Part shown: one piece after another, positions 22,609 to 36,596 of the stretch
How positions within the stretch are numbered: position 1 is the first letter of the stretch
Layout: the number at the start of each line of letters is the position of its first letter
Source: Paraglaciecola polaris LMG 21857
Lineage (GTDB): Bacteria > Pseudomonadota > Gammaproteobacteria > Enterobacterales > Alteromonadaceae
Direction: 5' to 3'
Assembly (NCBI RefSeq): GCF_000315055.1
Contig: NZ_BAER01000059.1
Location: 1-45,876, forward strand
DNA: 45,876 nucleotides
Position numbers and translations under genes: made by a program
Notes under the pieces: model-generated
Seen by the model: the letters and a program-made list of their open reading frames with translations, nothing else
The model's database searches: none
What the model was told of the DNA's origin: nothing

Positions 22609-24702
22609 TTAAAATTCCCAGATAATACTAGCGACTAGGTTTCTTCCGACTTCATTTTGCCCTGAACCGTGAACCCGATAGTTTTTATTAAATAGGTTTT
22701 CAATAGCCCAGTTTAACGAAATTTGGTTTGAAAATTCGTAACCTCCTCTGATATGCAACAGCATAAAACTAGGTGTCCCATTGGGAGGAATACGTTGAAT
22801 ATCTGTTTTATCCCTTGCTGATAACTTATCAGCCTTTGCCATACCTTGAATTTGAGGCTCAATCCACCAATTGGCTCGTTGCGAAGCAAATTTAATCGAT
22901 AGTTGTCCTGATAACGGCATTAAACGGCTAATGTAATCCTCAGTTAAAACACTGCCTGCTTGGGGAATACTTTTCGTTTTTCCGTATTGGTAACTTAAGC
23001 CGAAATGACTGCTGATGTGTTGCGTTAATTCGTATGTATACGAGATATCACTACCATAAATATAACCATCGCCTTGATTGGATTTCGTTATGATAATTTC
23101 ACCATTGTCAGTAACCTCCCCATTGGGGAACAAAATAATCTGATTATCAATATTGGTATAATACACCGCAAGATCGATTGAGGCCTTTGTGTCACGTTTT
23201 CGATAGCCAAGCTCGTAACTTACAAAATTTTCAGAGTCAAGATTAACGGAAGGAATTTCGAACTCGTTGCTTCTGGCGGAATCAAGACGCGTTAAATCTG
23301 AAAGGTTTGGCGCGCGAAACCCTTCAGATAGACCAGCAAACAAAATACTTGAAGCACCTATTTTGTATTGAGCGCGAAAACTTCCAACTAAGTCGCTCCA
23401 TGATTTATCAATCGAAATTACCTGCTTTGTCAGTGGTTCTTCTACTTGTTTAGCACGTGTACTTATATGTGAATACCTGAGGCCGGCAATTAACTTAAGG
23501 TTATTTCTAGCTGACCAATGTAGCTCTGTGTAACCCGCAGTTGTGGTGTAGCTTGCATCGTCCGCTACAGGTCCTTGAATTATATTGCTTGAGGAAAAAC
23601 TGCTTATGCTGTCACGATAAACGTCTGTTCCAAATAGAATACCAAGGTCATTCACTGTGACGCCTGAATCTAATATCAGGCCTATGGTATTTACTGAAAA
23701 CCCCTGGTTATCAATACGATCGCCAGTTCGCACTCTGTGGCGTCTCTCATCTTGTTGCTGAAACGAAAGCACTGCATTGAAATGTGTGAGTAAAGAAAGC
23801 TCCTGCTTTTTGACGCGAAAGTACGTTAATTGGCGTTTTTGATCTAAATTCCGTGCCAATTCACTCCCTATTTCAGTTCCATTAAATGGGACTGAAAATA
23901 CCGTTTTATGTGTGCGTGGCACATCTTGTTGATGCGTTAAAAAATGCGCAAATGTGACGTTCCAACCCTCGTTGAATTGGTGGAGCCATTTTATGTCAAA
24001 GTTTGCTTCGTCGTAACCAGTGTTAGGTAGCACACTTTCACCTGATTCTATATCGCCAAAATCTTTACGGTTTGCCGATACGCGGATAGCTGAGTCTAGG
24101 GTGATGCTTTTTTCAAAAGCTAAGCCTTGGATATTTAGATTGGACGCATTAGCTCCTTGTACGAACATGGTAAATTTAGGGTCATCTTCGTCTACATTTG
24201 GCTGTTTAGTGATTGCGTTTACCGTCCCGCCAATGCCATCAGAACCGAATAGCACGGACGAGGGACCCATTACTATTTCCATACGCTGCACCGATAACGG
24301 ATCAACGGTATTCCAGTATTGATTGGGGCCTGAGCGGAACACGGCATTGTTGAGCTTTATACCATCTACCAAAAACAAGTTATGGAACCCAGTGAAGCCG
24401 CGTAAAAAGGGTGAGCCTTGGCCGTGGGATGTTTTTTGAGACATTGCGCCGGGCACATCACGAAATATATCTGTGGTGGTGCGATAATTTTTGGCTGTGA
24501 TCTCGTCATTGTCTACGGTATAAACTGAGTACGGTATTTCTAGCATAGACTGGCTAATTTTTCGGGAGGTGATAGTGATACTTTCCATTGCCGTTGACAG
24601 CGAAGTATCTTGGGCAAAAGCATAATTCAATAGCACAAAAGCAGTTAGCAGATAGGCAGTTTGAACAACGTACCTTTTCTTTAAGGATTGGACTGAACTC
24701 AT
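22609..24702 (-). CDS. TonB-dependent outer-membrane receptor
   Basis: A 697-residue receptor. A signal peptide ends near LNYAFA, a TonB-box-like stretch MESITITSRK follows, then the plug (residues about 50-170, PFLRGFTGFHNLFLVDGIKLNNAVFR and QRMEIVMGPSSVLFGSDGIGGTVN). After the plug comes a 22-strand-type barrel ending in the outer-membrane signature LVASIIWEF with terminal Phe. FAGLSEGFRAPNLSDLTRLD is typical of haem/vitamin/siderophore-class receptors. The ribosome site is AGGAAG. It is the last gene of the cohesin/dockerin run and lies 69 bases after the cohesin-like gene, with a hairpin in that gap. The ligand is unknown; the neighbours suggest a polymer or a protein-bound nutrient. Confidence 0.92.
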   Translation of the reverse strand: MSSVQSLKKRYVVQTAYLLTAFVLLNYAFAQDTSLSTAMESITITSRKISQSMLEIPYSVYTVDNDEITAKNYRTTTDIFRDVPGAMSQKTSHGQGSPFLRGFTGFHNLFLVDGIKLNNAVFRSGPNQYWNTVDPLSVQRMEIVMGPSSVLFGSDGIGGTVNAITKQPNVDEDDPKFTMFVQGANASNLNIQGLAFEKSITLDSAIRVSANRKDFGDIESGESVLPNTGYDEANFDIKWLHQFNEGWNVTFAHFLTHQQDVPRTHKTVFSVPFNGTEIGSELARNLDQKRQLTYFRVKKQELSLLTHFNAVLSFQQQDERRHRVRTGDRIDNQGFSVNTIGLILDSGVTVNDLGILFGTDVYRDSISSFSSSNIIQGPVADDASYTTTAGYTELHWSARNNLKLIAGLRYSHISTRAKQVEEPLTKQVISIDKSWSDLVGSFRAQYKIGASSILFAGLSEGFRAPNLSDLTRLDSARSNEFEIPSVNLDSENFVSYELGYRKRDTKASIDLAVYYTNIDNQIILFPNGEVTDNGEIIITKSNQGDGYIYGSDISYTYELTQHISSHFGLSYQYGKTKSIPQAGSVLTEDYISRLMPLSGQLSIKFASQRANWWIEPQIQGMAKADKLSARDKTDIQRIPPNGTPSFMLLHIRGGYEFSNQISLNWAIENLFNKNYRVHGSGQNEVGRNLVASIIWEF

Positions 24703-24771: not shown

Positions 24772-25386
24772 TTAGTTAATATGGTATCTACGTTTAATTG
24801 CTATCATCAAACCGAGAATCAGTAATCCAAATGTAGCGGGTGTTGATGCACTCACTGCAGGATTTCGTAGTACGCCATCACCAATACTATCGATGAGTAA
24901 AGCATTGCCAAAGGCGTCCCCGAGAGCATAAACCGTCTCGACACTAACAGTCGTTGTTTCTCCTTCTTCTAATTGATCAACATCAAAATTAAATGTGGCA
25001 AGACTAAAAGCACTTCCTTGTAATACATCCAATTCATCGACTTCGAGTAAGCTTAGAATACTTATTCCAATCAAACCTGGGACAAACTCACCAAAACTAT
25101 CGTCAATGGCTTCAGTTGCTAAATCTCCTAGCATGTCAGTTAACGAATAACTCGTCAGACTCAATCTAGAATCATCGAAGAAAATATCTAAATCGAACGT
25201 ACCTAAGGAGTCAGCACTGCCTGCCATTAGCCCGGAAATCATTAAGTCCATGCTCACGGAATCTCCAGTAGTGGTAACCTGTGAGCTGGGCGCGAAACTA
25301 AGCATTACGTTAGCGTTTGCGTTATTGATACTTAATGCAGCAAATACTAATGTCACACTAAGCAATAAATTTTTCATAGATTTCAT
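24772..25386 (-). CDS. Cohesin-like domain protein with PEP-CTERM-type tail
   Basis: A 204-residue exported protein. The signal peptide ends near NNANA. Residues about 27-165 look like a cohesin fold: a start VMLSFAPSSQVTTTGDSVSMDLMISGL, then GTFDLDIFFDDSRLSLTSYSL, the alternating hydrophobic pattern and conserved FD.DD turn of type I cohesins, and later FSLATFNFDV. The tail STPATFGLLILGLMIAIKRRYHIN is a variant exosortase sorting signal: short motif, helix, then basic cluster, with three extra residues. It starts 24 bases after the dockerin protein gene, with AAGGA as its ribosome site. Probably the membrane/surface anchor that binds the dockerin of its neighbour. That pairing is inference. 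Confidence 0.75.
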   Translation of the reverse strand: MKSMKNLLLSVTLVFAALSINNANANVMLSFAPSSQVTTTGDSVSMDLMISGLMAGSADSLGTFDLDIFFDDSRLSLTSYSLTDMLGDLATEAIDDSFGEFVPGLIGISILSLLEVDELDVLQGSAFSLATFNFDVDQLEEGETTTVSVETVYALGDAFGNALLIDSIGDGVLRNPAVSASTPATFGLLILGLMIAIKRRYHIN

Positions 25387-25410
25387 TTTATTTCCTTAAG
25401 TAGTTTAGTG

Positions 25411-27204
25411 TTATGAGGAAGCTGCACATCGTGAATTGGTACATTCTAAAACACACTTACGCGCATCTAATTTGTTTATCACCCCATTACGGTCAATATC
25501 GAGTGGTTCATTGGGACCCGCAGGTGTATTTCTATGCGGACGGAATAGGTTAATATCCAGAATGTTCACTTCATTGTTATTGTCCAAATCACAAGAAAGT
25601 GCGTCCTCTAGTGTATTTAGCACTAAGTCACTTAGAATAGGCGACTCGTTCTGGTCATTAGGTCTTAGAACGGTGCGCACATCGATAAACCGACCGCTTA
25701 TCGCTAAGTTATTGGTACCATTTGTTACGGGAGTGAAAGGTAGCAAGGCTAACTCAGGACTTGTGTTGGCTGCTCTAACTGAGACCGTAATACTTGCACC
25801 TGTGGGAACTTGTCCTTCAGGTTCGGTATTCCATGAAACCTTATCCCAGATGGTGTCAGGTGCACCTCCGTCCCCAATTACAGTCCAAATGCCTGTAGGA
25901 TCAGTCACGGTGCGCGCTGCAATTCCAGTCGCATCACTATAGGTATAGGGGTTGCGTCCAACGGGTTTAAGTAATAAAACATTTCCGGTGTCCTTGTCGA
26001 ATTTTGTCACATTATGGCTACTAAGATTGACCGCCCAAACATTGTTTTTACTGTCAGGAATAACGCCGATTGAACTGCTACCAGGGTTGCTCGTTAACCA
26101 TAGCCGATTACCAGCGGCATCGACGCGAGTGACATTGGATGTGCCTCCTACAATAAAACCTTCTCCATCTACTGATAAACCGAAGTTAGAATTCGATAAC
26201 GGAGCAAGTGTAAAGGTGCCTGTGGTCGGGTCATTATCATCCGGCATTTTAGGATCGTATTCGCGGAAATCACGACCAGAATTACCCAGATAAACCTTGC
26301 CATTACCGATAGCAATACCATAGCTGCTGCCGGAAAAGGTTAAAGTATCCAACCAAGTATTATTATTAGTGTCGAGGATCCCTAATCGACTGCTCAAGCT
26401 TGCACTCCATAGAATGCCGTCACCATCAACAAGGCAACCATAAGGCGTTAAGCTACCGGTTGTTGCAATTGGGCCAGATAAAACTGAGCCATCAACTGAA
26501 CTTATTTTGTAATATTCTCGTCGATTAAATAAGCCGACCCAAATATTTCCGTCAGTCCCGATGCAAAGGGAACGCCCTAAACCATTATTTTCACCTACAG
26601 GGACTATCCAAGCAATTCGTTCGTCAGCTATTTCATTGGTTTGTAAAATACCATCAGAATTCAGATCAACAGGTGGGATGAATTCAGTAGGTGACGTCCT
26701 ATCGATCGAACAGTCTCCATTGGTATCTACACTTGTGTCGATGACACCGTTTCCGTTTCGGTCAATCCCCCCTTCAGAGAGAATTTTCATTATACTGGCG
26801 GGTTTACCATCAAAGTGTCTATTTGCCACAAAAACGTTACCCTCAACGTCGACCGCTGTGCGTGATGGGGCGGGGCCTGAATAAGCGCCATGGAACGTAC
26901 TCTCGAACCAAGTTGAGTACCTGGCGTCCTCACAGTCATTGTCTGTATCAATTTTAGATACCGAATCTTCCCCTGCGTTGGCAACCCATAAAATAGGGAA
27001 CGTTTCCCCTATGGCACTTAGCTGTAGCTGATTACTGTTAGGTGATGTGTAGTTAACGCTATTGAGAACCCCTAAATCAAAATCGGCGTCATTAGTATAA
27101 GCAATGGTTGTAGCGAGTGACTCTGCAGATATACCTAAGGTAAATACAAGGGTCGAAAAAACCGTACAACCACAAGTGGTTTTAGACAATACATTAATTT
27201 TCAT
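25411..27204 (-). CDS. Secreted beta-propeller (NHL/Vgb-like) protein with C-terminal dockerin
   Basis: A 597-residue exported protein. After the signal peptide, residues about 40-430 contain repeated W-V-A-N, G-N-V-F-V and G-N-I-W-V blades such as ILWVANAGEDSVSKID and CIGTDGNIWVGLFN, typical of NHL or streptogramin-lyase-like propellers. Acidic Ca-binding-type loops (DRNGNGVID, DLNSDGILQTNEI) interrupt the blades. The last 60 residues form a dockerin: CDLDNNNEVNILDI and DIDRNGVINKLDA are two D-x-D-x-N F-hand loops, followed by a Cys pair before the end. The start at 27204 has AAGGAT upstream. The frame runs back to 27255 without a signal. It lies 10 bases after the preceding small gene. No catalytic site is evident, so binding or scaffolding is more likely than lysis. 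Confidence 0.82.
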   Translation of the reverse strand: MKINVLSKTTCGCTVFSTLVFTLGISAESLATTIAYTNDADFDLGVLNSVNYTSPNSNQLQLSAIGETFPILWVANAGEDSVSKIDTDNDCEDARYSTWFESTFHGAYSGPAPSRTAVDVEGNVFVANRHFDGKPASIMKILSEGGIDRNGNGVIDTSVDTNGDCSIDRTSPTEFIPPVDLNSDGILQTNEIADERIAWIVPVGENNGLGRSLCIGTDGNIWVGLFNRREYYKISSVDGSVLSGPIATTGSLTPYGCLVDGDGILWSASLSSRLGILDTNNNTWLDTLTFSGSSYGIAIGNGKVYLGNSGRDFREYDPKMPDDNDPTTGTFTLAPLSNSNFGLSVDGEGFIVGGTSNVTRVDAAGNRLWLTSNPGSSSIGVIPDSKNNVWAVNLSSHNVTKFDKDTGNVLLLKPVGRNPYTYSDATGIAARTVTDPTGIWTVIGDGGAPDTIWDKVSWNTEPEGQVPTGASITVSVRAANTSPELALLPFTPVTNGTNNLAISGRFIDVRTVLRPNDQNESPILSDLVLNTLEDALSCDLDNNNEVNILDINLFRPHRNTPAGPNEPLDIDRNGVINKLDARKCVLECTNSRCAASS

Positions 27205-27214
27205 CGTTGTATCC

Positions 27215-27562
27215 TTAATCGTTTTCCATAACGAGACTGGTACTGCTTGCCTCAAGATTGTTCATTGATGCAACCACGGTCAATTCTCCCGTGACTTCAA
27301 TTGCTGTGGTGTAATAGAAGGTTCCATCACTGCTACTAACGACATTCGCTTGAAAAACAATTTCTCCCTCTTTGTTTAAGGCTTTAATTAGAATGGGGGA
27401 GCTATTAGGTGCACCTCCACCATTAATCTCAATATCGTTGCCAACAGTCATGACGGAAGGGGTTGATACCCAAGAAGTCGCGTAGGCAGTATTCGATAAG
27501 AGCACTGTAAGACACATTAATAGCGGTTTTGGGGTCCATAGGTGGGATTTGACGCTTTTCAT
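27215..27562 (-). CDS. Small secreted protein, Ig-like fold possible
   Basis: A 115-residue protein. The signal peptide (LLMCLTVLLSNTAYA) leaves a mature part of about 85 residues rich in Ser, Asn, Val and Ile in alternating strands (VGNDIEINGGGAPNSSPILIKAL, EVTGELTVVASM). This resembles a single bacterial Ig-like or carboxypeptidase-regulatory beta-sandwich. There is a good ribosome site (AAGAGG). It is spaced 10 bases before the dockerin protein gene, so the two are very likely co-translated. No catalytic residues are seen. It may be an accessory module or a chaperone of the assembly. Confidence 0.7.
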   Translation of the reverse strand: MKSVKSHLWTPKPLLMCLTVLLSNTAYATSWVSTPSVMTVGNDIEINGGGAPNSSPILIKALNKEGEIVFQANVVSSSDGTFYYTTAIEVTGELTVVASMNNLEASSTSLVMEND

Positions 27563-27723
27563 AAATTACCTCTTCAGATTCGAAAATCCTTCTGTACTAC
27601 TGAAGGTAGGAAATTGATGAAAAGCATATAATGGGCCACAAAAGTTTTTACGTTTGTTTACAAGTGGTTAAATGTCACCCGATTTTGCGTGTTTGTCCTA
27701 TTGTAAAAAACTTCGGCAGTTAA

Positions 27724-28743
27724 CTATCTGTCATTGGTAAGAAAAAAGGGCATTATCTGGAATTTTCCTTCAACTGGATATAATTGACTTTCTATATTTG
27801 AGCTTAAACTTAACTGGTATAATCCAAATTGATTATTTCGGTATGCGCTATAGAGCAGAGCTGTGCTCGTTGGATCCCAAACTGGATCCCTCACTTCAAT
27901 CCCTGATTCAGTCAATGCTATTGGCTTAGGTGCTCGTAAATCACTGACGAACAATTGCAATCTAGTCCCGTCGACTCTATTGCTCAGCCAGGCTATTTTA
28001 TTTCCATCGGGTGAATATTTAGGTGATGTGTCAATAGTGGGCAATTCCGTCCACAGGCGTTGCGCCTTATCAGATAGATTTATCTCCCATAAATCGAACT
28101 GCTTTTGGTGTTTGACTGACACCATCATATTGTTGTTATTTGGGGCCCAATCGTATTCGGCAACAACGTACTTACCTTTATCAAAATAAGTTTGCTTTTG
28201 CTTTTTTGCTAAATCGAATATATGTAGAACGGAAGTGCGTCCAACTTGCTCGCTGAATGCTAGGTGAGAGTCGGCTTGATTTATTTTCAGGTCAAGGATG
28301 GTATTCGGGCTCGTATAAATAGGGACTAAATTAGTGGACTTAATACTGGTTATAAAAATCGTATGTTGTGTGTTTGAATTAACTGAATAAGCTATTTCAT
28401 CTTTGTCTGAAAAGCATGCTAAGGAGCTCGGAAATCCAACTTCAGGTTCGATTTTTTTTATTTTATTACCCTGTTTATCTAGCACTTGGATAAATTTACT
28501 TGTTTGGCTCCTTGTTATAACGGCAAGCCAATTCCCCTCTGGGCCACTACATGGTTCCATATCATCAAAAACATTATGCGTAATCTGAGTGCGTTTTTTG
28601 TGGTTGTTAGTTGTAATGTAAAGCTCAATATCACCATCTTCATTGGATAAATATCCAATTTCAGCCGCGATAATTTTTTGCGTGAAGATACAAATAATGC
28701 TGAAAAATGCAATGCTCGAAATTGTTTTAAAGTAGTGCGACAT
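27724..28743 (-). CDS. TolB-like beta-propeller periplasmic protein
   Basis: A 339-residue exported protein. After the signal peptide (ending KIIAAEIGYLS) it shows TolB/DPP-IV-type WD40-like repeats: DIELYITTNNHKKRTQITHNVFDDMEPCSGPEGNWLAVIT, FDLWEINLSDKAQRLWTELPTIDTSPKYSPDGNKIAWLS (key motif SPDG), RLQLFVSDL and VRDPVWDPTSTALLYSA. Each blade ends in a structure of the kind D-P-x-W-S-P-D-G. I start at 28743, where AAGGAAAA provides the ribosome site. The open frame extends to 28875 without supporting features. It heads the run toward the cohesin/dockerin genes, with a 161-base gap before the next gene. No peptidase domain follows, so a binding role is likely. Confidence 0.8.
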   Translation of the reverse strand: MSHYFKTISSIAFFSIICIFTQKIIAAEIGYLSNEDGDIELYITTNNHKKRTQITHNVFDDMEPCSGPEGNWLAVITRSQTSKFIQVLDKQGNKIKKIEPEVGFPSSLACFSDKDEIAYSVNSNTQHTIFITSIKSTNLVPIYTSPNTILDLKINQADSHLAFSEQVGRTSVLHIFDLAKKQKQTYFDKGKYVVAEYDWAPNNNNMMVSVKHQKQFDLWEINLSDKAQRLWTELPTIDTSPKYSPDGNKIAWLSNRVDGTRLQLFVSDLRAPKPIALTESGIEVRDPVWDPTSTALLYSAYRNNQFGLYQLSLSSNIESQLYPVEGKFQIMPFFLTNDR

Positions 28744-29996: not shown

Positions 29997-30026
29997 AAAC
30001 ATGCTCACCTAATGGTGAGCATGTTT
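29997..30026 (-). terminator. Terminator overlapping the stop codon of the His-rich gene
   Basis: AAACATGCTCACC (29997-30009) and GGTGAGCATGTTT (30014-30026) form a 13-bp perfect stem with loop TAAT, and T runs on both strands. The minus-strand stop codon (30009-30011) falls at the loop, so the last codons (KHAHH) are part of the stem. Confidence 0.88.
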
Positions 30027-30557
30027 GTTTTCAATTGGCTGGGAAGTAAAATTATGCAGCACTATCTGTTTTTTTGATAAATCAAGAAAAACGGAGCCCA
30101 CAATATTGTGATCCCCTGACATCCAGTTCTCATGTTGATGACTGTTAAGCGATACCGCCACCTGATTGACGCCTGCTTCCAGCCAACTTTGTGGAATATG
30201 TACATCTTTACCATATAACCTTTGTCGCTTTATACCATTCACAAACACATGAGCATGCCCTTGCAATATACCGCCGACCTTATTATCAGGAGTATTCACT
30301 GCTAAGTTTGGGGCGTTCAGCAGGTAATTGTCGATCTCTACGTGAATGTTCACGCCATCGAGTGGGTCTCGATAAGCGCTTAACTCAATTTTAGGTATCG
30401 GTGTACCTTCACCAATATCTAATGCTTTATGTTCATGAATTTCAGTAGATGCCATCACTGTAACATTCACTACTTGGATCACGCCTAAGATAAGTGATAC
30501 CAACAACACGCGAGCCAAAAAACTCGTTTTTGACGTGACGTGGTTACTTTTATTCAT
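30009..30557 (-). CDS. Secreted His-rich protein, partner of the YHYH lipoprotein
   Basis: A 182-residue exported protein; a signal helix spans about residues 14-35. The mature part is histidine-rich (EIHEHKALD, GHAHVFVNGIKRQRLYGKDVHIP, SLNSHQHENWMSGDHN and a KHAHH end). This suggests metal binding, possibly copper, but that is inference. The core pattern, including GVNQVAVSLNSHQHENW, is seen in small proteins often annotated as hypothetical and located beside YHYH-domain proteins. It begins 1 base after the stop of the YHYH gene and has a GGAG ribosome site, so the two are co-translated. Its end is built into its own terminator. Confidence 0.75.
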   Translation of the reverse strand: MNKSNHVTSKTSFLARVLLVSLILGVIQVVNVTVMASTEIHEHKALDIGEGTPIPKIELSAYRDPLDGVNIHVEIDNYLLNAPNLAVNTPDNKVGGILQGHAHVFVNGIKRQRLYGKDVHIPQSWLEAGVNQVAVSLNSHQHENWMSGDHNIVGSVFLDLSKKQIVLHNFTSQPIENKHAHH

Positions 30558-30558
30558 A

Positions 30559-32130
30559 TTAACCCGCTCCTGGAGGTGGTCCCATTACCGAACCGGTACT
30601 GCAAGATGCGACTGCGTTATCTTGCAACTGCCCAGCAAAGCGGCTGCCTATTATATAAGGGAACGCAGGCGCATAAGAGCCGTCTACCTCAGTGATCGTA
30701 ATATGGTAATGATACCCTCGAGTGCTATCTGTATGGCCATTGAATTGATCTAAGTATGCGCCGCCTTGAGCCGTTAACTCGCTAGCCCAATAGTAATCTT
30801 CGTAGTAATAGCCATTTTCTGCTGTCAGTTCATTCTTGGATAGAGTTTCAACGACATCGTCGAAGTCTGGCCCTTGTGTGGCGCTTTCGGTACCCAAAGA
30901 GGCGTCATAGGGATCAACCAAGGTACAACTGCGTGCATCGTCTGAGCAGCCCGTTTCAGAAGTCGACGTGTAATCACGCACAGCCCATGCACTGACGGCG
31001 AGCACACCGTTATCTTGCCATGGACCGTAAATTGGATAACCGTCGGCCGCGTAGCCGTAGATAGGTGAATGCTGGTCGCCTGTGTCACCGACCAAGTCTG
31101 CTAAGCAGCTAGTATAAAAATGGTGGTGATAATCGCCATTAGCTGAGTGACCGCCACAAATGTCAACGTCGTATTGCTCTGCAACTGGCGCCAGGTTTTG
31201 CCATGAGCCATCCGTGTTATAGCTCATTCCGTCTCCCCAGTTATACACAGAGGAGCCATTGACAAATAAACCAACTTTACCCAGCCCGTTATCGCATTCT
31301 TCTGTGGTTACCTCTGGTGTTTTAGGAAAATAAACCTCTCGTTCATCTTCTGTTGGGCAAGCTGGACCAGGTGGCCAGTAGCCGTAGCCTGCATTGGAAT
31401 CGCAATTATCCCCAGTGCTCACGTAACCAACATCTTCACCGAACTCAACAATATCTCCTACGGAAGCTGTTGTTTCACCTGTGACTAAATCTGAGCTGGC
31501 TTTCGGGCGATTATTAATGCTGTCAATGATGTCTTGGGTCATGGTGACATCGTACTTTGGGATCCCTTGGCTTGTGACGACGGTATAATCAACATTATCA
31601 ATGGTTTCCTCAGTAACGGATTGCACGTTCACCAACACGCCAACCCCGCTTGAAGAATCTAGAATACGGGTAGACACTTCATCGGTGGTGTTGATGATCC
31701 ATACGCTATCTGGTGTCGCATCATCGCTGTCAACGGCTATAGTAACTGATACCGTATCGGTTACCGCATCATTGGTGCCATCATCTACTGAGATTTGAAA
31801 TTGCAGCGTTTCTGCTGTTGTCACCGTAGGGGTAGTAAAAGTCGTGCTAGCTGTTGTGTTATCACTTAGTGTTACATCGGTACCAGACAATTGAGCCCAG
31901 CTAATGACGTAGCTTGTATCGTCATCGGTAATGGTGGCAGTTAATGTAACGGTGTCGCCACTTGCAGCGATTTGAGCATTACCCGCTTCAACGACAGGAG
32001 CTGCATTTTGCGTTTCCTCCGTCGCGGCATCATCGTTGCTTGATGAATCAGAACCACAACCGGCCACTAAAGCACAAAACAGGAGTGTACTTGACCATTT
32101 CATTAAACGACAGTGAGCGCTTTTTGTCAT
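30559..32130 (-). CDS. YHYH domain lipoprotein with PKD/REJ-like domain
   Basis: A 523-residue lipoprotein; the lipobox LVAGC places the lipidated Cys at 25, followed by a Ser/Asp/Ala linker. Residues about 45-135 form one PKD/REJ-like beta-sandwich (VTLTATITDDDTSYVISWAQLSGTDVTLSD). The C-terminal 300 residues contain the YHYH domain: DICGGHSANGDYHHHFYTSC, PIYGYAADGYPIYGPW and GYHYHIT, with many conserved Cys and His. YHYH proteins are widespread in marine bacteria and have no settled function. Metal binding or a surface enzyme role is plausible. It is the first gene of a two-gene operon with the His-rich protein. Confidence 0.87.
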   Translation of the reverse strand: MTKSAHCRLMKWSSTLLFCALVAGCGSDSSSNDDAATEETQNAAPVVEAGNAQIAASGDTVTLTATITDDDTSYVISWAQLSGTDVTLSDNTTASTTFTTPTVTTAETLQFQISVDDGTNDAVTDTVSVTIAVDSDDATPDSVWIINTTDEVSTRILDSSSGVGVLVNVQSVTEETIDNVDYTVVTSQGIPKYDVTMTQDIIDSINNRPKASSDLVTGETTASVGDIVEFGEDVGYVSTGDNCDSNAGYGYWPPGPACPTEDEREVYFPKTPEVTTEECDNGLGKVGLFVNGSSVYNWGDGMSYNTDGSWQNLAPVAEQYDVDICGGHSANGDYHHHFYTSCLADLVGDTGDQHSPIYGYAADGYPIYGPWQDNGVLAVSAWAVRDYTSTSETGCSDDARSCTLVDPYDASLGTESATQGPDFDDVVETLSKNELTAENGYYYEDYYWASELTAQGGAYLDQFNGHTDSTRGYHYHITITEVDGSYAPAFPYIIGSRFAGQLQDNAVASCSTGSVMGPPPGAG

Positions 32131-32354
32131 TGAAGAACCTATATTAGCATTTTAATTAGAAAGTGATTCTAACCATCAATTGTGGAATAAGTGTGCAGAT
32201 CTTGCGTATTTTTCAAGGAATTAAAGGGGGGAGTAAATGCGCAAACTCCATTCTGTTCTAGGTATTATTGAGTGACTTATTCGGCAGAGAACAGAATTCG
32301 TCCCTGCTTTCTAGCTTATGGTTGTGCATTGCAACTTAGTGCCTTTATCAGATG

Positions 32355-33854
32355 CTATTCAGCTAAGTCGTAGTGAGTTTTATATAAGCCTGTGTTGTTG
32401 AACATTCTTTCTGGTGGTAGATCATTTGCGACGATAATCGTCTTGCCCTCAGCCTTATTCTTAGTCAAGGTAAACGCATCATATAGAGTCCCATCACCCA
32501 TGAAAGCCTGGTAGCTAAGCTGCTGGTTACTTTTTTTGACGATTTGATAAGTGGGTGTGTTTTCACCTATGCGCTCGAGTGTGACGCCATAATCACGATA
32601 TTCGTCCCAGCGAGTTGGTTTTACGGGGTAAGTTTTAGGCCCTGCAACCGTTGTCACAAATACGCTCTTAACCTGCTTAAGTGATGTGCTACTGGCGGCG
32701 ATAGCAAGGTCTTTTTCAGTGCCTATGCTGCCGCGGGAATAAGCATGATCATGCCCCTGTAAAACCAAGTCAACATTGTGTTTTAACATGATGGGTAAAA
32801 ACGCGGCGCGAACGTCGGGTTCATCTTGGCCCGCTGTGCCCAGCGGCATACCACATGAAGAGAATATTGGGTGATGCAAGGTTACAATACGCCATTTCGC
32901 AGAGCTGTTTTGTAATTTTCGGTCAAGCCACGTTGCCTGAGCCTGTAGCAAGGCTATATTTCCTTGGGCTTCTGAGTCCAGTACAAATACATCTAGATCT
33001 GGGTAGTGGGTTACGTAAGCAGTTTCTTGTAATGCTTTAGGTAAACTGGGGGATAATGGCAGGGTAAATTGGTCTTGCCATAATGTTGAAAGGGCCCAGT
33101 TTTTTTGCTTATTTTCTTGCATCTGCCAATCATATTCATGATTACCCGCAACCAACACCGCGGGCAGGGAACGATGGATAAATTGCCCTGCATTGAGCCA
33201 GTTTGACCACTGTTGATCGCTTGCCCCTTCGTTGACTAAGTCACCAGCGTAAACAGCAAATTTAGCTTTAGGCGCATGTTGCCAAGCATGACGTAGCATC
33301 AAAGGCCAATGTGAATAAATGCCATTTTGGGCATCTCCGAAGTATAAAAACTCGAAGTCCTGCTCCGTGTTAGTTGGGGCGGTTTTTATCTGTTGCCAAG
33401 GTGACCACTTCCCAGATGCGCCTTCGACTCGGTAGTTGTAGTTAGTATCGGCTTGCAGATTATAAAAAGTAAGTGAGTGATAACTCACGATAGGTAGTCC
33501 TGTATTAGAAGGATAGGAGAATTGACCTTGGCTATTGATACCTTTATCTGGCGACGTACGGTAGGTTTTTGCTGAGAATTCTTTGGCGTTCACATCGTAG
33601 CGTGCATTAGGGCTCGCTTTAACAATTTGGCCGTGCGTATTTTTCACGGTTTTGTCAGTACGCCATGTCACTGAGAAGCTAGACGCAGGAGTGGGAGTGG
33701 GCGTAACAATAATGCGATCTGGCCAAGAAGATGCGCGAATATGCGGGGTGATCGCCTTCACAGGGCTTTGTGCGGCGCGAACGACTTTTGTTATGAACAA
33801 TGTCGGGATGAGTAAAAAAGTACTGGCTATTAAGGTGATAAGAAAATTTTTCAT
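32355..33854 (-). CDS. Purple acid phosphatase-like metallophosphoesterase
   Basis: A 499-residue exported phosphatase. The signal peptide ends near VVRAA. Residues about 40-160 form the fibronectin-like purple acid phosphatase N-terminal domain (SSFSVTWRTDKTVKN, TNYNYRVEGASGKWS). The calcineurin-type core holds D174 (YFGDAQNG), D205 (YAGDLVNEG), N238/H239 (AGNHEY), H327/H328 (LHHP) and H368/H370 (GHDHAYSRG), a complete dimetal site. It probably hydrolyses phosphomonoesters outside the cytoplasm. It lies downstream of the STN-type receptor on the same strand, but a terminator at 33888-33916 separates them. Confidence 0.9.
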   Translation of the reverse strand: MKNFLITLIASTFLLIPTLFITKVVRAAQSPVKAITPHIRASSWPDRIIVTPTPTPASSFSVTWRTDKTVKNTHGQIVKASPNARYDVNAKEFSAKTYRTSPDKGINSQGQFSYPSNTGLPIVSYHSLTFYNLQADTNYNYRVEGASGKWSPWQQIKTAPTNTEQDFEFLYFGDAQNGIYSHWPLMLRHAWQHAPKAKFAVYAGDLVNEGASDQQWSNWLNAGQFIHRSLPAVLVAGNHEYDWQMQENKQKNWALSTLWQDQFTLPLSPSLPKALQETAYVTHYPDLDVFVLDSEAQGNIALLQAQATWLDRKLQNSSAKWRIVTLHHPIFSSCGMPLGTAGQDEPDVRAAFLPIMLKHNVDLVLQGHDHAYSRGSIGTEKDLAIAASSTSLKQVKSVFVTTVAGPKTYPVKPTRWDEYRDYGVTLERIGENTPTYQIVKKSNQQLSYQAFMGDGTLYDAFTLTKNKAEGKTIIVANDLPPERMFNNTGLYKTHYDLAE

Positions 33855-33887
33855 AAGAGAGGCCTATGGCTAAACTAACAAAATGTT

Positions 33888-33916
33888 AAAACGTCACCGC
33901 TGAGCAGTGACGTTTT
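33888..33916 (-). terminator. Terminator after the STN-type TonB receptor gene
   Basis: AAAACGTCAC (33888-33897) and GTGACGTTTT (33907-33916) form a 10-bp stem with 9-base loop and T/A flanks on both strands. It ends the receptor transcript before the phosphatase gene. Confidence 0.85.
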
Positions 33917-33965
33917 GATTATAAAAATCAGGCGTAAATACACCACACCTGATTTGCTCATCTTC

Positions 33966-36455
33966 TTAAAATGCGTAGCTAACGCCACCACCGTAAGTTG
34001 CTGGTGCACCCACTAAACGAGCACCGCCATTTAACTCCAAAAAGTACACCTCATCAGTGATATTACGACCATAGGCATATATATTTAAACCGCTTGCAAA
34101 CGTCACGTCGACGCGAACACCCAACAAACCATATGAGGGGGCGGTATTGCCATCGCCCGCGTTCAAGCGATTAGACTCTTCACCATGGTAGCTATAGTTG
34201 ATGCGAGCATTTAGCTGGGTGTTATTTGCCAGTGAAATTTGATAGTTCAGAGCAGCAGTTTGACTCCATTCTGGTGAGCCGGGTAATGGGTCACCAATCG
34301 TACTGATGACATCATTTACTCGGTTTGAACTGAATTCGGTGATCTCAGTATCCAAATAGGTACCCGCTGTATTGAAAGTTACTTTATGCTCGTTCGCTTC
34401 AAACAAAGTAACTGCAATTGAGGCTTCAGCACCGCGGACTGTGGCTTCACCAACGTTAGTCCTGCCATTGGTATCGTTCGATAGGCGCGCTGTGGCCTGT
34501 AATTCTTCAAAGTCATAAGAGAACACATCAAAGGTAATGTTGATAATGTCTGTTACATAGCGAGCGCCGGCTTCATAGGCAAGTACTTCTTCCGACTCGA
34601 AGGGTTGGGTTTCTTCTTCAGAGAATATCGATGTACCATCGAAACCGCCGCCACGATAGGCTGTGCTCACAGAGGCGAAAACGTTGAGATTGTCACTAAT
34701 GAAATACTGAATAGCCAATTTGCCAGATACGTTGCTGTCATCAAACTCACGATCCCATGAGAAGTTGGCGTCTGTTTTAAAGGTTTCTTCAAATACGGAT
34801 AATCCCCATGGATCGGCATCAATATTTTCACCGCGGAATTTCGCATTGTCTTTGGTGTAGCGCAGGCCACCGCTTATCACTAAGTCGTTAGACACATTCC
34901 AATCTATATTAGCAAACGTAGCGAAACTATTACGTCGTTGATTATAGGGTGAACTGTACTGAGACAATACTGCATAGCTTGTCCAGTTACTGGTGAAATC
35001 CACTGAGTCATTGATAAAAAATGCGCCTGCTATCCAGTCAAATTCACCGCCGGTTGCGTCACTCAAGCGAATTTCTAACGATGTTTGGTCAAGCTCATCG
35101 TCAAAGTTGTATTGGTAGCGAGGAAATGATGTGCCGTCTCCGTTACCGCTGACATTGCGCTCACTATTTTGTAATGCGAACAGTACATCAAGGTTTAAGC
35201 CTGATTGTAATTGGCGGTTAAAGTCCCCTGAAAATCCGCTCACATCGATTTCATGTGAGTAGTATTCGCTGGTGTAAAAATCGTAAGGGTCGTTACCTTC
35301 ACCTGCGTTGAGCGAGGGGTTGTCGTCTTCAAAAGCAATACGGTCATACTGACGGGTATCGCCTCGATCTTGACTCGTAAAATAATGCAATGTCAGTGAG
35401 GTTACATCATCGAAGTCATAAACGGCAGTGCCACGAAAGGCGAATAAGTCCGCGTCACCAAAGCCGTCTCGCTCGCCTGGGTCAGCAACTGGTGGTACAA
35501 CACCTTCTGTACCTTCAGGGACGAACCCTGCGAAATTGCCTGCGCCTTTACCATCCATAAAGCCGCCGCCCTGTTCCATTAATACGGCTACGCGTACTCC
35601 TAAGTTTTCTGAAACTTTGCCGCCAACCGCTGCTGTGCCTGAAACAAAGTCGTATGAGCCGTATTCGATATCTGCATAGCCGTTTAACTCATCACCTGGG
35701 GCACGTGTGATGGCATTAATTGCCCCAGCTGTGGTGTTGCGCCCGTAAAGGGTGCCTTGTGGACCTTTGAGTACTTCAATACGCTCTAAATCAAAAAGAG
35801 GCATGCTTAAATAAGCGTTAGATGTTTGGTAAATGCCATCAATATGTAGCGCAACAGAAGGGTTGCCGTTTGGCTTGTAATCATCCGCCCCGCCTATACC
35901 GCGAATAGTAATAAAGCTATTTTCAGGTCCGCCAAATGCCGAGTTAATTGAAATACCGGAAAGACTATCAATTAAGTCTGTGAAATCTGTCACGCCTTGG
36001 GCTTTCAACTCATCCCCGCCTAATACTGAGATTGCTACTGGAGCGTCTTGTAAGCTGCTATCGCGTTTTAGTGCTGTGACCACAACTTCGTCCATTGGCG
36101 CTTGATAAGTCGTGGCGCCTTTACCTTGAACCTGTTTTTTCTTGGCGGCTTTTTTAATCACAATAGCACCGCTTGGCTCCTGATGAGCCTGTAAACCGCT
36201 GCCTTGCAATAATTGTTTTACTGCATTAATGACCGACAAGTTACCTGCTGTGGCCTTGGCTTGCTTGTTACTAACTAAGCGACTGGGGGCAATAATAACG
36301 CTCCCCGTTTGCTCTGAAAGTTGATTCAAAGCCTGTCCGAGAGGTTGAACAGCAATATTCACCTCATTTTGTTTGGCCAATACTTGGTGAGACGCTAAAG
36401 CAGCGAGTGCGGTGCCAAATAAAGCAAATTTAATCGAGCGGCTAAGGATTTTCAT
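33966..36455 (-). CDS. TonB-dependent receptor with N-terminal STN signalling domain
   Basis: An 829-residue receptor of the FecA-like signalling class. The signal peptide ends ASHQVLA. Residues about 30-95 are the STN (secretin/TonB short N-terminal) domain: NIAVQPLGQALNQLSEQTGSVIIAPSRLVSN. It is followed by a Lys-rich linker, the TonB-box-like DEVVVTALKRD, the plug (NSFITIRGIGGADDYKPNGNPSVALHIDG, GPQGTLYGRNTTAGAINAI) and a barrel ending in GGGVSYAF. I start at 36455 with GGAAG as ribosome site. The frame extends to 36503 without support. It lies downstream of the FecR and sigma genes on the same strand, so it is probably both their target and the ligand sensor. The ligand is unknown. Confidence 0.93.
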   Translation of the reverse strand: MKILSRSIKFALFGTALAALASHQVLAKQNEVNIAVQPLGQALNQLSEQTGSVIIAPSRLVSNKQAKATAGNLSVINAVKQLLQGSGLQAHQEPSGAIVIKKAAKKKQVQGKGATTYQAPMDEVVVTALKRDSSLQDAPVAISVLGGDELKAQGVTDFTDLIDSLSGISINSAFGGPENSFITIRGIGGADDYKPNGNPSVALHIDGIYQTSNAYLSMPLFDLERIEVLKGPQGTLYGRNTTAGAINAITRAPGDELNGYADIEYGSYDFVSGTAAVGGKVSENLGVRVAVLMEQGGGFMDGKGAGNFAGFVPEGTEGVVPPVADPGERDGFGDADLFAFRGTAVYDFDDVTSLTLHYFTSQDRGDTRQYDRIAFEDDNPSLNAGEGNDPYDFYTSEYYSHEIDVSGFSGDFNRQLQSGLNLDVLFALQNSERNVSGNGDGTSFPRYQYNFDDELDQTSLEIRLSDATGGEFDWIAGAFFINDSVDFTSNWTSYAVLSQYSSPYNQRRNSFATFANIDWNVSNDLVISGGLRYTKDNAKFRGENIDADPWGLSVFEETFKTDANFSWDREFDDSNVSGKLAIQYFISDNLNVFASVSTAYRGGGFDGTSIFSEEETQPFESEEVLAYEAGARYVTDIINITFDVFSYDFEELQATARLSNDTNGRTNVGEATVRGAEASIAVTLFEANEHKVTFNTAGTYLDTEITEFSSNRVNDVISTIGDPLPGSPEWSQTAALNYQISLANNTQLNARINYSYHGEESNRLNAGDGNTAPSYGLLGVRVDVTFASGLNIYAYGRNITDEVYFLELNGGARLVGAPATYGGGVSYAF

Positions 36456-36596
36456 GATGTATCTTCCAATTAATTTATGAGGGTTCGTTACAAGAGTCAT
36501 CACGACGATTTATTTTTCAACTTAAGTGCTTGTTTCATAAAAACTTCACACAATGGGTGGTTATTTATCCATTTTTTAATCGCTAGGGCTAAAGTG

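Follow-up and report, generated by a model that had tools for sequence, protein, structure and literature searches.

The window analysed here is a stretch of 45,876 nucleotides (nt) of contig NZ_BAER01000059.1 of Paraglaciecola polaris LMG 21857, and two neighbouring genes on its minus strand are the main subject. One encodes a secreted beta-propeller protein of 597 amino acids (aa) with a C-terminal dockerin domain (25411..27204), recognised from its open reading frame (ORF) and from a comparison of the propeller family profile A5 with the PDB. The other encodes a 204-aa cohesin-domain protein (24772..25386) with a signal peptide at approximately aa 1-26 (by eye), one cohesin domain and an exosortase-type C-terminal tail. 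It is likely that the two form a docking cassette with a split sorting signal, in which the exosortase-sorted cohesin carries the address and the dockerin passenger plugs into it. By means of such a dedicated cassette, export would be separated from knowing where to sit. The product of the short gene, one cohesin domain followed by an exosortase sorting tail, would be exported by the Sec route; after processing of the tail by the exosortase, the cohesin would come to lie on the outer surface or in exopolysaccharide. The neighbouring gene would supply a secreted passenger with one terminal dockerin, which, outside the cell, would bind its own cohesin, presumably with calcium. Being bound to the cohesin, the passenger would consequently be kept near the cell and would not diffuse away.

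The dockerin domain covers aa 538-597 of the propeller protein (25414..25593, minus strand; PF00404 and alignment A2) and includes the four cysteines C538, C584, C588 and C593. Two calcium-loop-like segments can be recognised by sequence, DLDNNNEVNILD at aa 539-550 (25555..25590) and DIDRNGVINKLD at aa 569-580 (25465..25500), and appear to be the dockerin-type double loops that the initial annotation had placed at the end of this protein. The PF00404 profile agrees with that description when the domain is taken by itself: positions 25462-25590 score 22.8 bits, or 23.6 bits with the neighbours in frame, and the dockerin as a separate 70-aa domain scores 23.7 bits, against a cut-off of 22.9; in the whole 597-aa protein the score is 18.4 bits, under the cut-off. 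Among the 36 aligned dockerin relatives, 33 match PF00404 at E<=0.1, and the loops keep their aspartates D12, D23, D42 and D53 in every one of the 36 rows of A2. When the dockerin profile is compared with the PDB, the best match is the cellulosomal enzyme chain 2y3n_B (1.5e-7), with 4fl4, 2ccl and 1ohz close behind; we take these first matched chains to be dockerins.

The cohesin domain proper lies at roughly aa 27-167 of the partner protein (24886..25308, minus strand), as placed from profile positions with inexact residues. When the 34-member profile A1 is compared with the PDB, scaffoldin chains come first (1g1k 4.3e-6, 2vn5 6.7e-6, 3l8q 7.2e-6), and profile positions 27-167 align to residues 4-139 of 1g1k. 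The entries 1g1k and 2vn5 are cohesins, and two further ones matched by A1, 6kg8 and 6kgc, are named as cohesins in their titles. In addition, 18 of the 34 profile members match PF00963 at E<=1, which is an E threshold and not the curated cut-off (best 3.2e-5). Judged at the family level, the window gene product has one cohesin domain, and in this form the cohesin-like domain previously assigned to 24772-25386 stands.

The two genes recur as a pair. The gene-level set comprises 158 fetched loci and the window, in which 165 dockerin and 135 cohesin proteins were found at E<=1e-3, the cohesin profile having its tail trimmed off. Each of the 135 cohesin proteins has one cohesin domain, and each passenger has one dockerin (profile search of the fetched loci and the window). 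A cohesin gene lies within 400 nt of 126 of the 165 dockerin proteins, on the same strand in 126 of 126 cases and downstream in 105. By locus choice, the proportion is 43 of 46 for the loci that supplied rows of A1 and A2 (L065-L109, hits of the window-protein search, with the window included; not a fair sample), 76 of 109 for loci chosen by dockerin hit alone (L134-L234) and 7 of 10 for picks from hits of either kind in a class-wide search (L235-L246). The same tendency was seen before any family profile existed, when the 295 genomes of the bacterial family were searched with each single sequence independently: of the 39 cohesin hits that lay outside the own genome, 30 were accompanied by a dockerin hit no more than 6 kb away. 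Among the 150 dockerin profile matches listed, 101 had a listed cohesin within 6 kb and 87 within 500 nt (150 cohesin matches were listed), and 100 of these 101 listed 6-kb pairs were on the same strand. Given a few cohesin genes in a genome of 4-5 Mb, well under 1 of 150 dockerins would be expected within 500 nt of a cohesin by chance. The pairing, recurrent in more than 100 loci, is therefore more than chance, and the expectation that the cohesin and dockerin genes are conserved together is borne out. The designation of such modules as strays is rejected, since pairing within 400 nt is far above chance; a systematic pair is found instead.

The side on which the cohesin gene lies follows the position of the dockerin. 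In nine of the 165 proteins the dockerin is near the passenger N-terminus (L091, L094, L142, L144, L146, L147, L149, L150 and L236), and those of them with an adjacent cohesin gene have it upstream in 8 of 8 cases. In the remaining adjacent pairs the cohesin is downstream in 105 of 118; the 13 misfits include all 7 of the M4 class. In view of this side preference, the segments that code for dockerin and cohesin may travel together as a single contiguous cassette of DNA. Two loci show other arrangements. At L165 961-14163 (G177), the fetched stretch has four BNR_4-class dockerin genes in tandem and no cohesin gene, which speaks against a strict pair rule; one distant cohesin might serve all four, in the manner of a small polysaccharide-degrading complex. 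At L240 2769-5232 (G370), cohesin-like and dockerin domains are combined in one protein of 354 aa, which has an internal hydrophobic stretch and looks like a scaffoldin-type adaptor; another cohesin ORF overlaps its end.

The sorting tail is found on the cohesin side of the pair. In the window it occupies 24775..24849 (minus strand) and consists of the proline motif TPAT, a hydrophobic stretch and a basic end; it ends ..STPATFGLLILGLMIAIKRRYHIN and matches PFE_CTERM weakly (E 0.039, below the cut-off). Relatives have PEP, PAP or similar at the motif, and among the 34 cohesin relatives 22 match Pfam PEP-CTERM (PF07589) and 23 match TIGR02595 at E<=1. By a rule of our own (a proline motif, a hydrophobic 16-mer and at least two basic residues), a tail is present in 127 of the 135 cohesin proteins, the window copy included, in 2 of the 165 dockerin proteins and in 48 of 546 control ORFs, which were the other 150-260 aa ORFs of the same loci. 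These counts place the sorting signal almost exclusively on the cohesin partner. The exosortase-type tail described in the initial annotation is thus confirmed by this rule, even though none of the PEP-CTERM-type models passes its cut-off on the window copy. In the own genome, the EpsH exosortase family is matched once (PF09721 at G000:C136, E 2.9e-68). Exosortases are described in part of PMC12188702 as trafficking proteins to the exterior, and they are implicated there in stabilising extracellular polymers at the surface.

Across the 295 family genomes, cohesin was found in 123 and dockerin in 132 at E<=1e-8, and both were found in 116. Exosortase (E<=1e-3) was found in 208 genomes, among them 121 of the 123 cohesin genomes. 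The Fisher p values for these two tallies are 1.7e-54 and 1.4e-22, with kinship ignored. At E<=1e-3, cohesin is counted in 197 and dockerin in 146 of the 295 genomes; A1 includes the tail, and the 1e-8 threshold was set afterwards to shed tail-only matches. Seven cohesin genomes have no dockerin at E<=1e-8. In a class-wide sample of 229 genomes, which includes the own genome and one more of its family, dockerin was found in 16 (E<=1e-3) and cohesin in 13 (E<=1e-8). Outside the family, the gene pair lies within 140 nt in G339, G358, G490 and G332 and is 794 nt apart in G375, and weaker cases are seen in G370, G395 and G506. One scan of viral contigs found no relative. That the docking pair is common in the family and thinly spread through the class, as part of the split-sorting reading, is a view on which we are evenly divided.

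The passengers are diverse. By sequence outside the dockerin, the 165 dockerin proteins fall into 34 clusters, of which 18 are singletons, some of them fragments; passenger domains were read on cluster representatives and not on all 165 proteins. The largest class is the ExeM/NucH nuclease type (62 of 165), followed by the PKD/pre-peptidase type (16), the window-type propeller (13) and BNR_4 proteins (12). The protease passengers are M4-like metalloproteases (7), S8 (6), M43 (4) and two M9 clusters of 2 each, and further classes are IgGFc-binding-domain proteins (5) and porphyranase-like proteins (5). Single cases include a metallophosphatase, a glucuronyl-esterase-like protein and a GH42-like protein, and some cluster representatives match no family. 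The own genome has two further loci of this kind. In L107 5805-9986 (C98), a cohesin gene stands next to the gene for a 1157-aa member of the PKD/pre-peptidase cluster, whose dockerin is of the 4-cysteine form, and in L108 1772-10880 (C105 17000-33000), an ExeM/NucH-dockerin gene, a cohesin gene with sorting tail and an S8-dockerin gene stand in a row. The initial annotation had noted that no hydrolase is present. This is true at the window locus, but the own genome has dockerins on an ExeM/NucH nuclease and an S8 protease, and the family has them on more enzymes; as a general description, a capture device with no hydrolase is ruled out by the nuclease and protease passengers.

Taken family-wide, the exosortase-sorted cohesin would be a trans-acting address for unrelated secreted proteins and would replace each passenger's C-terminal tail, a wider reading that has in our view about an equal chance of being right or wrong. 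Such a tail exchange, with a dockerin replacing the sorting tail, is only partly borne out on ExeM. Dockerin is present in 19 of 30 ExeM/NucH loci fetched (of 54 matches above cut-off listed for 61 genomes); among the other 11, the L270 protein ends in a GlyGly-type tail and ten have no recognised anchor (by eye). At G015:C223 (L220 and L270), two ExeM-type nuclease genes lie approximately 3 kb apart, one with a dockerin and the other with a GlyGly-CTERM-like tail (by eye).

The cysteines of the dockerin divide it into forms with which the cohesins agree. Near the dockerin end, a C-x4-C motif is present in all 156 sequences (of 165) that have residues at both columns. A second pair, which opens repeat 1 and closes repeat 2, is variable: among the 152 dockerins with residues at both outer-cysteine columns, 52 have both cysteines, 1 has a single one and 99 have neither. 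The outer cysteines are thus nearly always present together or absent together, as expected of a disulfide that staples both dockerin ends, and the dockerin is probably held rigid by one or two disulfides. In a FastTree tree of 123 paired cohesins, the cysteine form of the partner needs 6 changes, compared to 37.6 in shuffles, with 0 of 500 shuffles as low. Cohesin similarity also follows dockerin similarity: rho is 0.38 for the full set of pairs and 0.276 when only loci with different passengers are compared, and 0 of 300 permutations were as high in either case. For the 2-cysteine form with different passengers the relation is clear (rho 0.30, 0 of 300 permutations as high). This subtype matching supports, and does not prove, cohesin-dockerin contact, and linkage and relatedness contribute to it.

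The window locus includes further genes around the pair. An ORF check of the window found five genes, all open and on the minus strand, in the transcription order TolB-like propeller gene (27724..28743), small secreted protein (27215..27562), 597-aa propeller, 204-aa cohesin protein and TonB-dependent receptor (22609..24702). The gaps are 10 nt between the small protein and the propeller and 24 nt between the propeller and the cohesin gene, and all five proteins have a signal-peptide-like start (by eye). The TolB-like protein matches PF07676 with 31.7 bits, above the PD40 cut-off, and gives a partial TIGR02800 match below cut-off. Profile A5 retrieves propeller proteins from the PDB (1l0q 1.3e-7, 1rwi 9.7e-6), and the 597-aa window protein itself matched no Pfam propeller family. 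The 697-aa receptor matches PF00593 (6.6e-34) and PF07715 (4.5e-22), above the Pfam cut-off. It is nearest to the heme/hemoglobin receptor subfamily (TIGR01785, 193.5 bits, below the cut-off of 316.85), and its best PDB matches are the colicin I receptor and PhuR; as a guess, the ligand that propeller and receptor handle may be heme or a chelated metal. Nearby, the stretch 30009-36503 of the window contains genes whose products resemble a YHYH-type protein and a metallophosphatase, together with what looks like a second TonB receptor, extended at its N-terminus (named by eye).

Only part of this neighbourhood is conserved. In the 12 other orthologous propeller loci, the cohesin gene is found in 11, the TolB-like gene in 10 (18-30% identity), the TonB receptor in 9 (41-57% identity) and the small protein in 1. 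The latter, previously called Ig-like, matches no family. The five-gene minus-strand run is real in the window; however, 8 of the 9 orthologous loci that keep the receptor have it on the opposite strand, so a single run is not a conserved feature. A close receptor, defined as at least 35% identity over at least 550 aa and within 3 kb, accompanies 10 of the 13 propeller-dockerins (window included) and 0 of the 152 dockerin proteins of other classes; a distant TonB-receptor-like gene is found near 3 of the 5 IgGFc-class dockerin proteins. A propeller scan of genome contigs gave 1 locus, a distant relative with 28% identity at L034 7917-10322 in an Armatimonadetes metagenome-assembled genome, and in the fetched stretch of L034 there was no dockerin or cohesin match at E<=10. 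Because the TonB receptor and the TolB-like propeller are conserved near the propeller, the propeller, once docked, probably retains or displays a ligand for import by the receptor.

This linkage is what favours the explanation given in the initial annotation, namely a TonB-receptor-specific capture device in which the cohesin is a membrane-held anchor, the dockerin propeller is the soluble arm and the receptor is the importer. The receptor and the TolB-like gene do recur in the orthologous loci, which is in keeping with a receptor that would import captured material. On the other hand, close-receptor linkage is limited to the propeller class, the module is also carried by nucleases and proteases, and the strand of the receptor is not kept; as a core part of the system, the TonB receptor is ruled out by its absence from the other classes. 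The membrane-held anchor is also doubtful in view of the description of exosortase substrates as reaching the exterior (in the same part of PMC12188702). As an explanation of the pair, the capture device is therefore possible and rather doubtful. It fits as a special case of this locus inside the docking-cassette reading, and it is plausible that a docking pair of general use serves for capture at this locus in particular.

Two other explanations concern the pair itself. The cohesin protein could be a chaperone, inhibitor or secretion partner of its dockerin neighbour, and may hold the passenger in the periplasm until export. Tight same-strand adjacency and a single-domain cohesin partner are also compatible with such a pair, but the explanation leaves no role for the tail (127 of 135 cohesin proteins) or the exosortase (121 of 123 cohesin genomes). 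Moreover, 7 loci have two different dockerin genes within 450 nt of a single cohesin gene, and the pair also occurs with passengers that have no recognised enzyme domain; we regard this explanation as unlikely. Alternatively, there may be no binding pair at all, the dockerin being an EF-hand-type domain that only adds stability in the presence of calcium, and the cohesin-like fold a surface domain of a generic kind that is passed on next to it. Calmodulins are indeed the majority among the best 60 of 280 PDB matches of the dockerin profile at E<=1, and the cohesin similarity exists at the profile level only. However, the best PDB matches of the dockerin profile include the cellulosomal dockerin chains listed above, those of the cohesin profile are scaffoldins, and adjacency across many passenger classes, co-occurrence and matched subtypes all argue for a pair, which makes this last explanation very unlikely.

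Several observations weigh against the docking cassette. The single-sequence test of the cohesin domain fails, because the 204-aa window protein by itself matches no Pfam family at E<=1 and a PF00963 search of the whole genome matched nothing. A single-sequence AlphaFold model of it is too poor for a fold search (mean predicted local distance difference test score 37), so the cohesin fold rests on profiles. The window tail has no literal PEP. For 39 of the 165 dockerin proteins, the cohesin is more than 400 nt away or was not found: 5 have it at 412-424 nt, 3 at 606-842 nt (one on the opposite strand) and 2 farther away on the opposite strand, and for 29 there is none in the fetched stretch. 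The L240 protein, which has both domains, was counted against itself among the 126. At the genome level, 16 of the 132 dockerin genomes have no cohesin at E<=1e-8, no exosortase was found in 2 cohesin genomes and 6 dockerin genomes, and the counts are uncorrected for relatedness. G030 is among those 16; its locus L066 has a propeller-dockerin orthologue with TonB receptor and TolB-like gene, and no cohesin was found in the locus or, at E<=1e-8, in the genome. With regard to subtype matching, the relation is marginal for the 4-cysteine form with different passengers (rho 0.145, 2 of 300 permutations as high), and the cohesin tree has few columns, many unresolved forks and near-copies that aid clustering. 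Neighbouring genes are inherited together, and matched trees alone are thus no proof of contact.

If the wider split-sorting reading is true, these bacteria would have an interchangeable means of fixing nucleases, proteases and nutrient-capturing propellers in the matrix. The docking cassette would supply cohesins and dockerins outside cellulosomes with a concrete function open to test, in which gene pair, sorting enzyme and passengers are specified, and exosortase substrates might then act as receptors to which other secreted proteins attach. The retention near cells of exoenzymes without their own tail could be explained in this way too, and small natural docking pairs would become available for surface display.

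The proposed system shares features with several known ones. Like the type I clostridial cellulosome, it has the same two domain families by profile, with the dockerin on the enzyme and the cohesin on a separate protein. Unlike the cellulosome, there is one cohesin per protein and one dockerin per passenger, nucleases are the largest passenger class, and the dockerin ends in C-x4-C, often with a second cysteine pair. Plant-cell-wall hydrolases, typical of the cellulosome, are absent from the window locus, and the cluster representatives are mostly nucleases or proteases with a few polysaccharide enzymes. It is not a cellulosome, because no multi-cohesin, multi-enzyme scaffold was seen and the passengers differ; rather, a cellulosome-type connector looks to have been reused as a general holder of secreted proteins at the cell surface or in slime.

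Noncellulosomal cohesins and dockerins are the same modules; what the present case adds is that they are encoded by a gene pair of their own, are linked to an exosortase and have a list of passengers. In part of PMC5244752, on methanotrophic archaea, their function outside the cellulosome is stated as not known. This was also the only source, as far as its consulted text goes, found for cohesin or dockerin with exosortase; none was found for dockerin with PEP-CTERM, with or without cohesin, and a search of mostly open papers, with Peer et al. 2009 and Haft et al. 2012 outside the comparison, gave no report of exosortase-linked cohesin-dockerin pairing. S8 proteases with dockerin repeats have been known since 2008, from Halobacterium and one more protein, and the portion of that paper considered here names no cohesin partner or sorting tail (PMC2605481). 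GlyGly-CTERM/rhombosortase sorting involves overlapping protein families, namely S8 proteases, an extracellular nuclease and VWA proteins according to sections of PMC3237569, and Shewanella ExeM has a GlyGly-CTERM tail according to an extract of PMC6085458. There, however, the passenger bears the tail, whereas here the passenger bears the dockerin and a separate cohesin protein bears the tail. Finally, the cohesin proteins are proposed here to be receptors for other secreted proteins, a role of PEP-CTERM proteins that the same search of mostly open papers did not find in print; like exosortase/PEP-CTERM proteins, they have a PEP-CTERM-type tail and co-occur with an EpsH-type exosortase.

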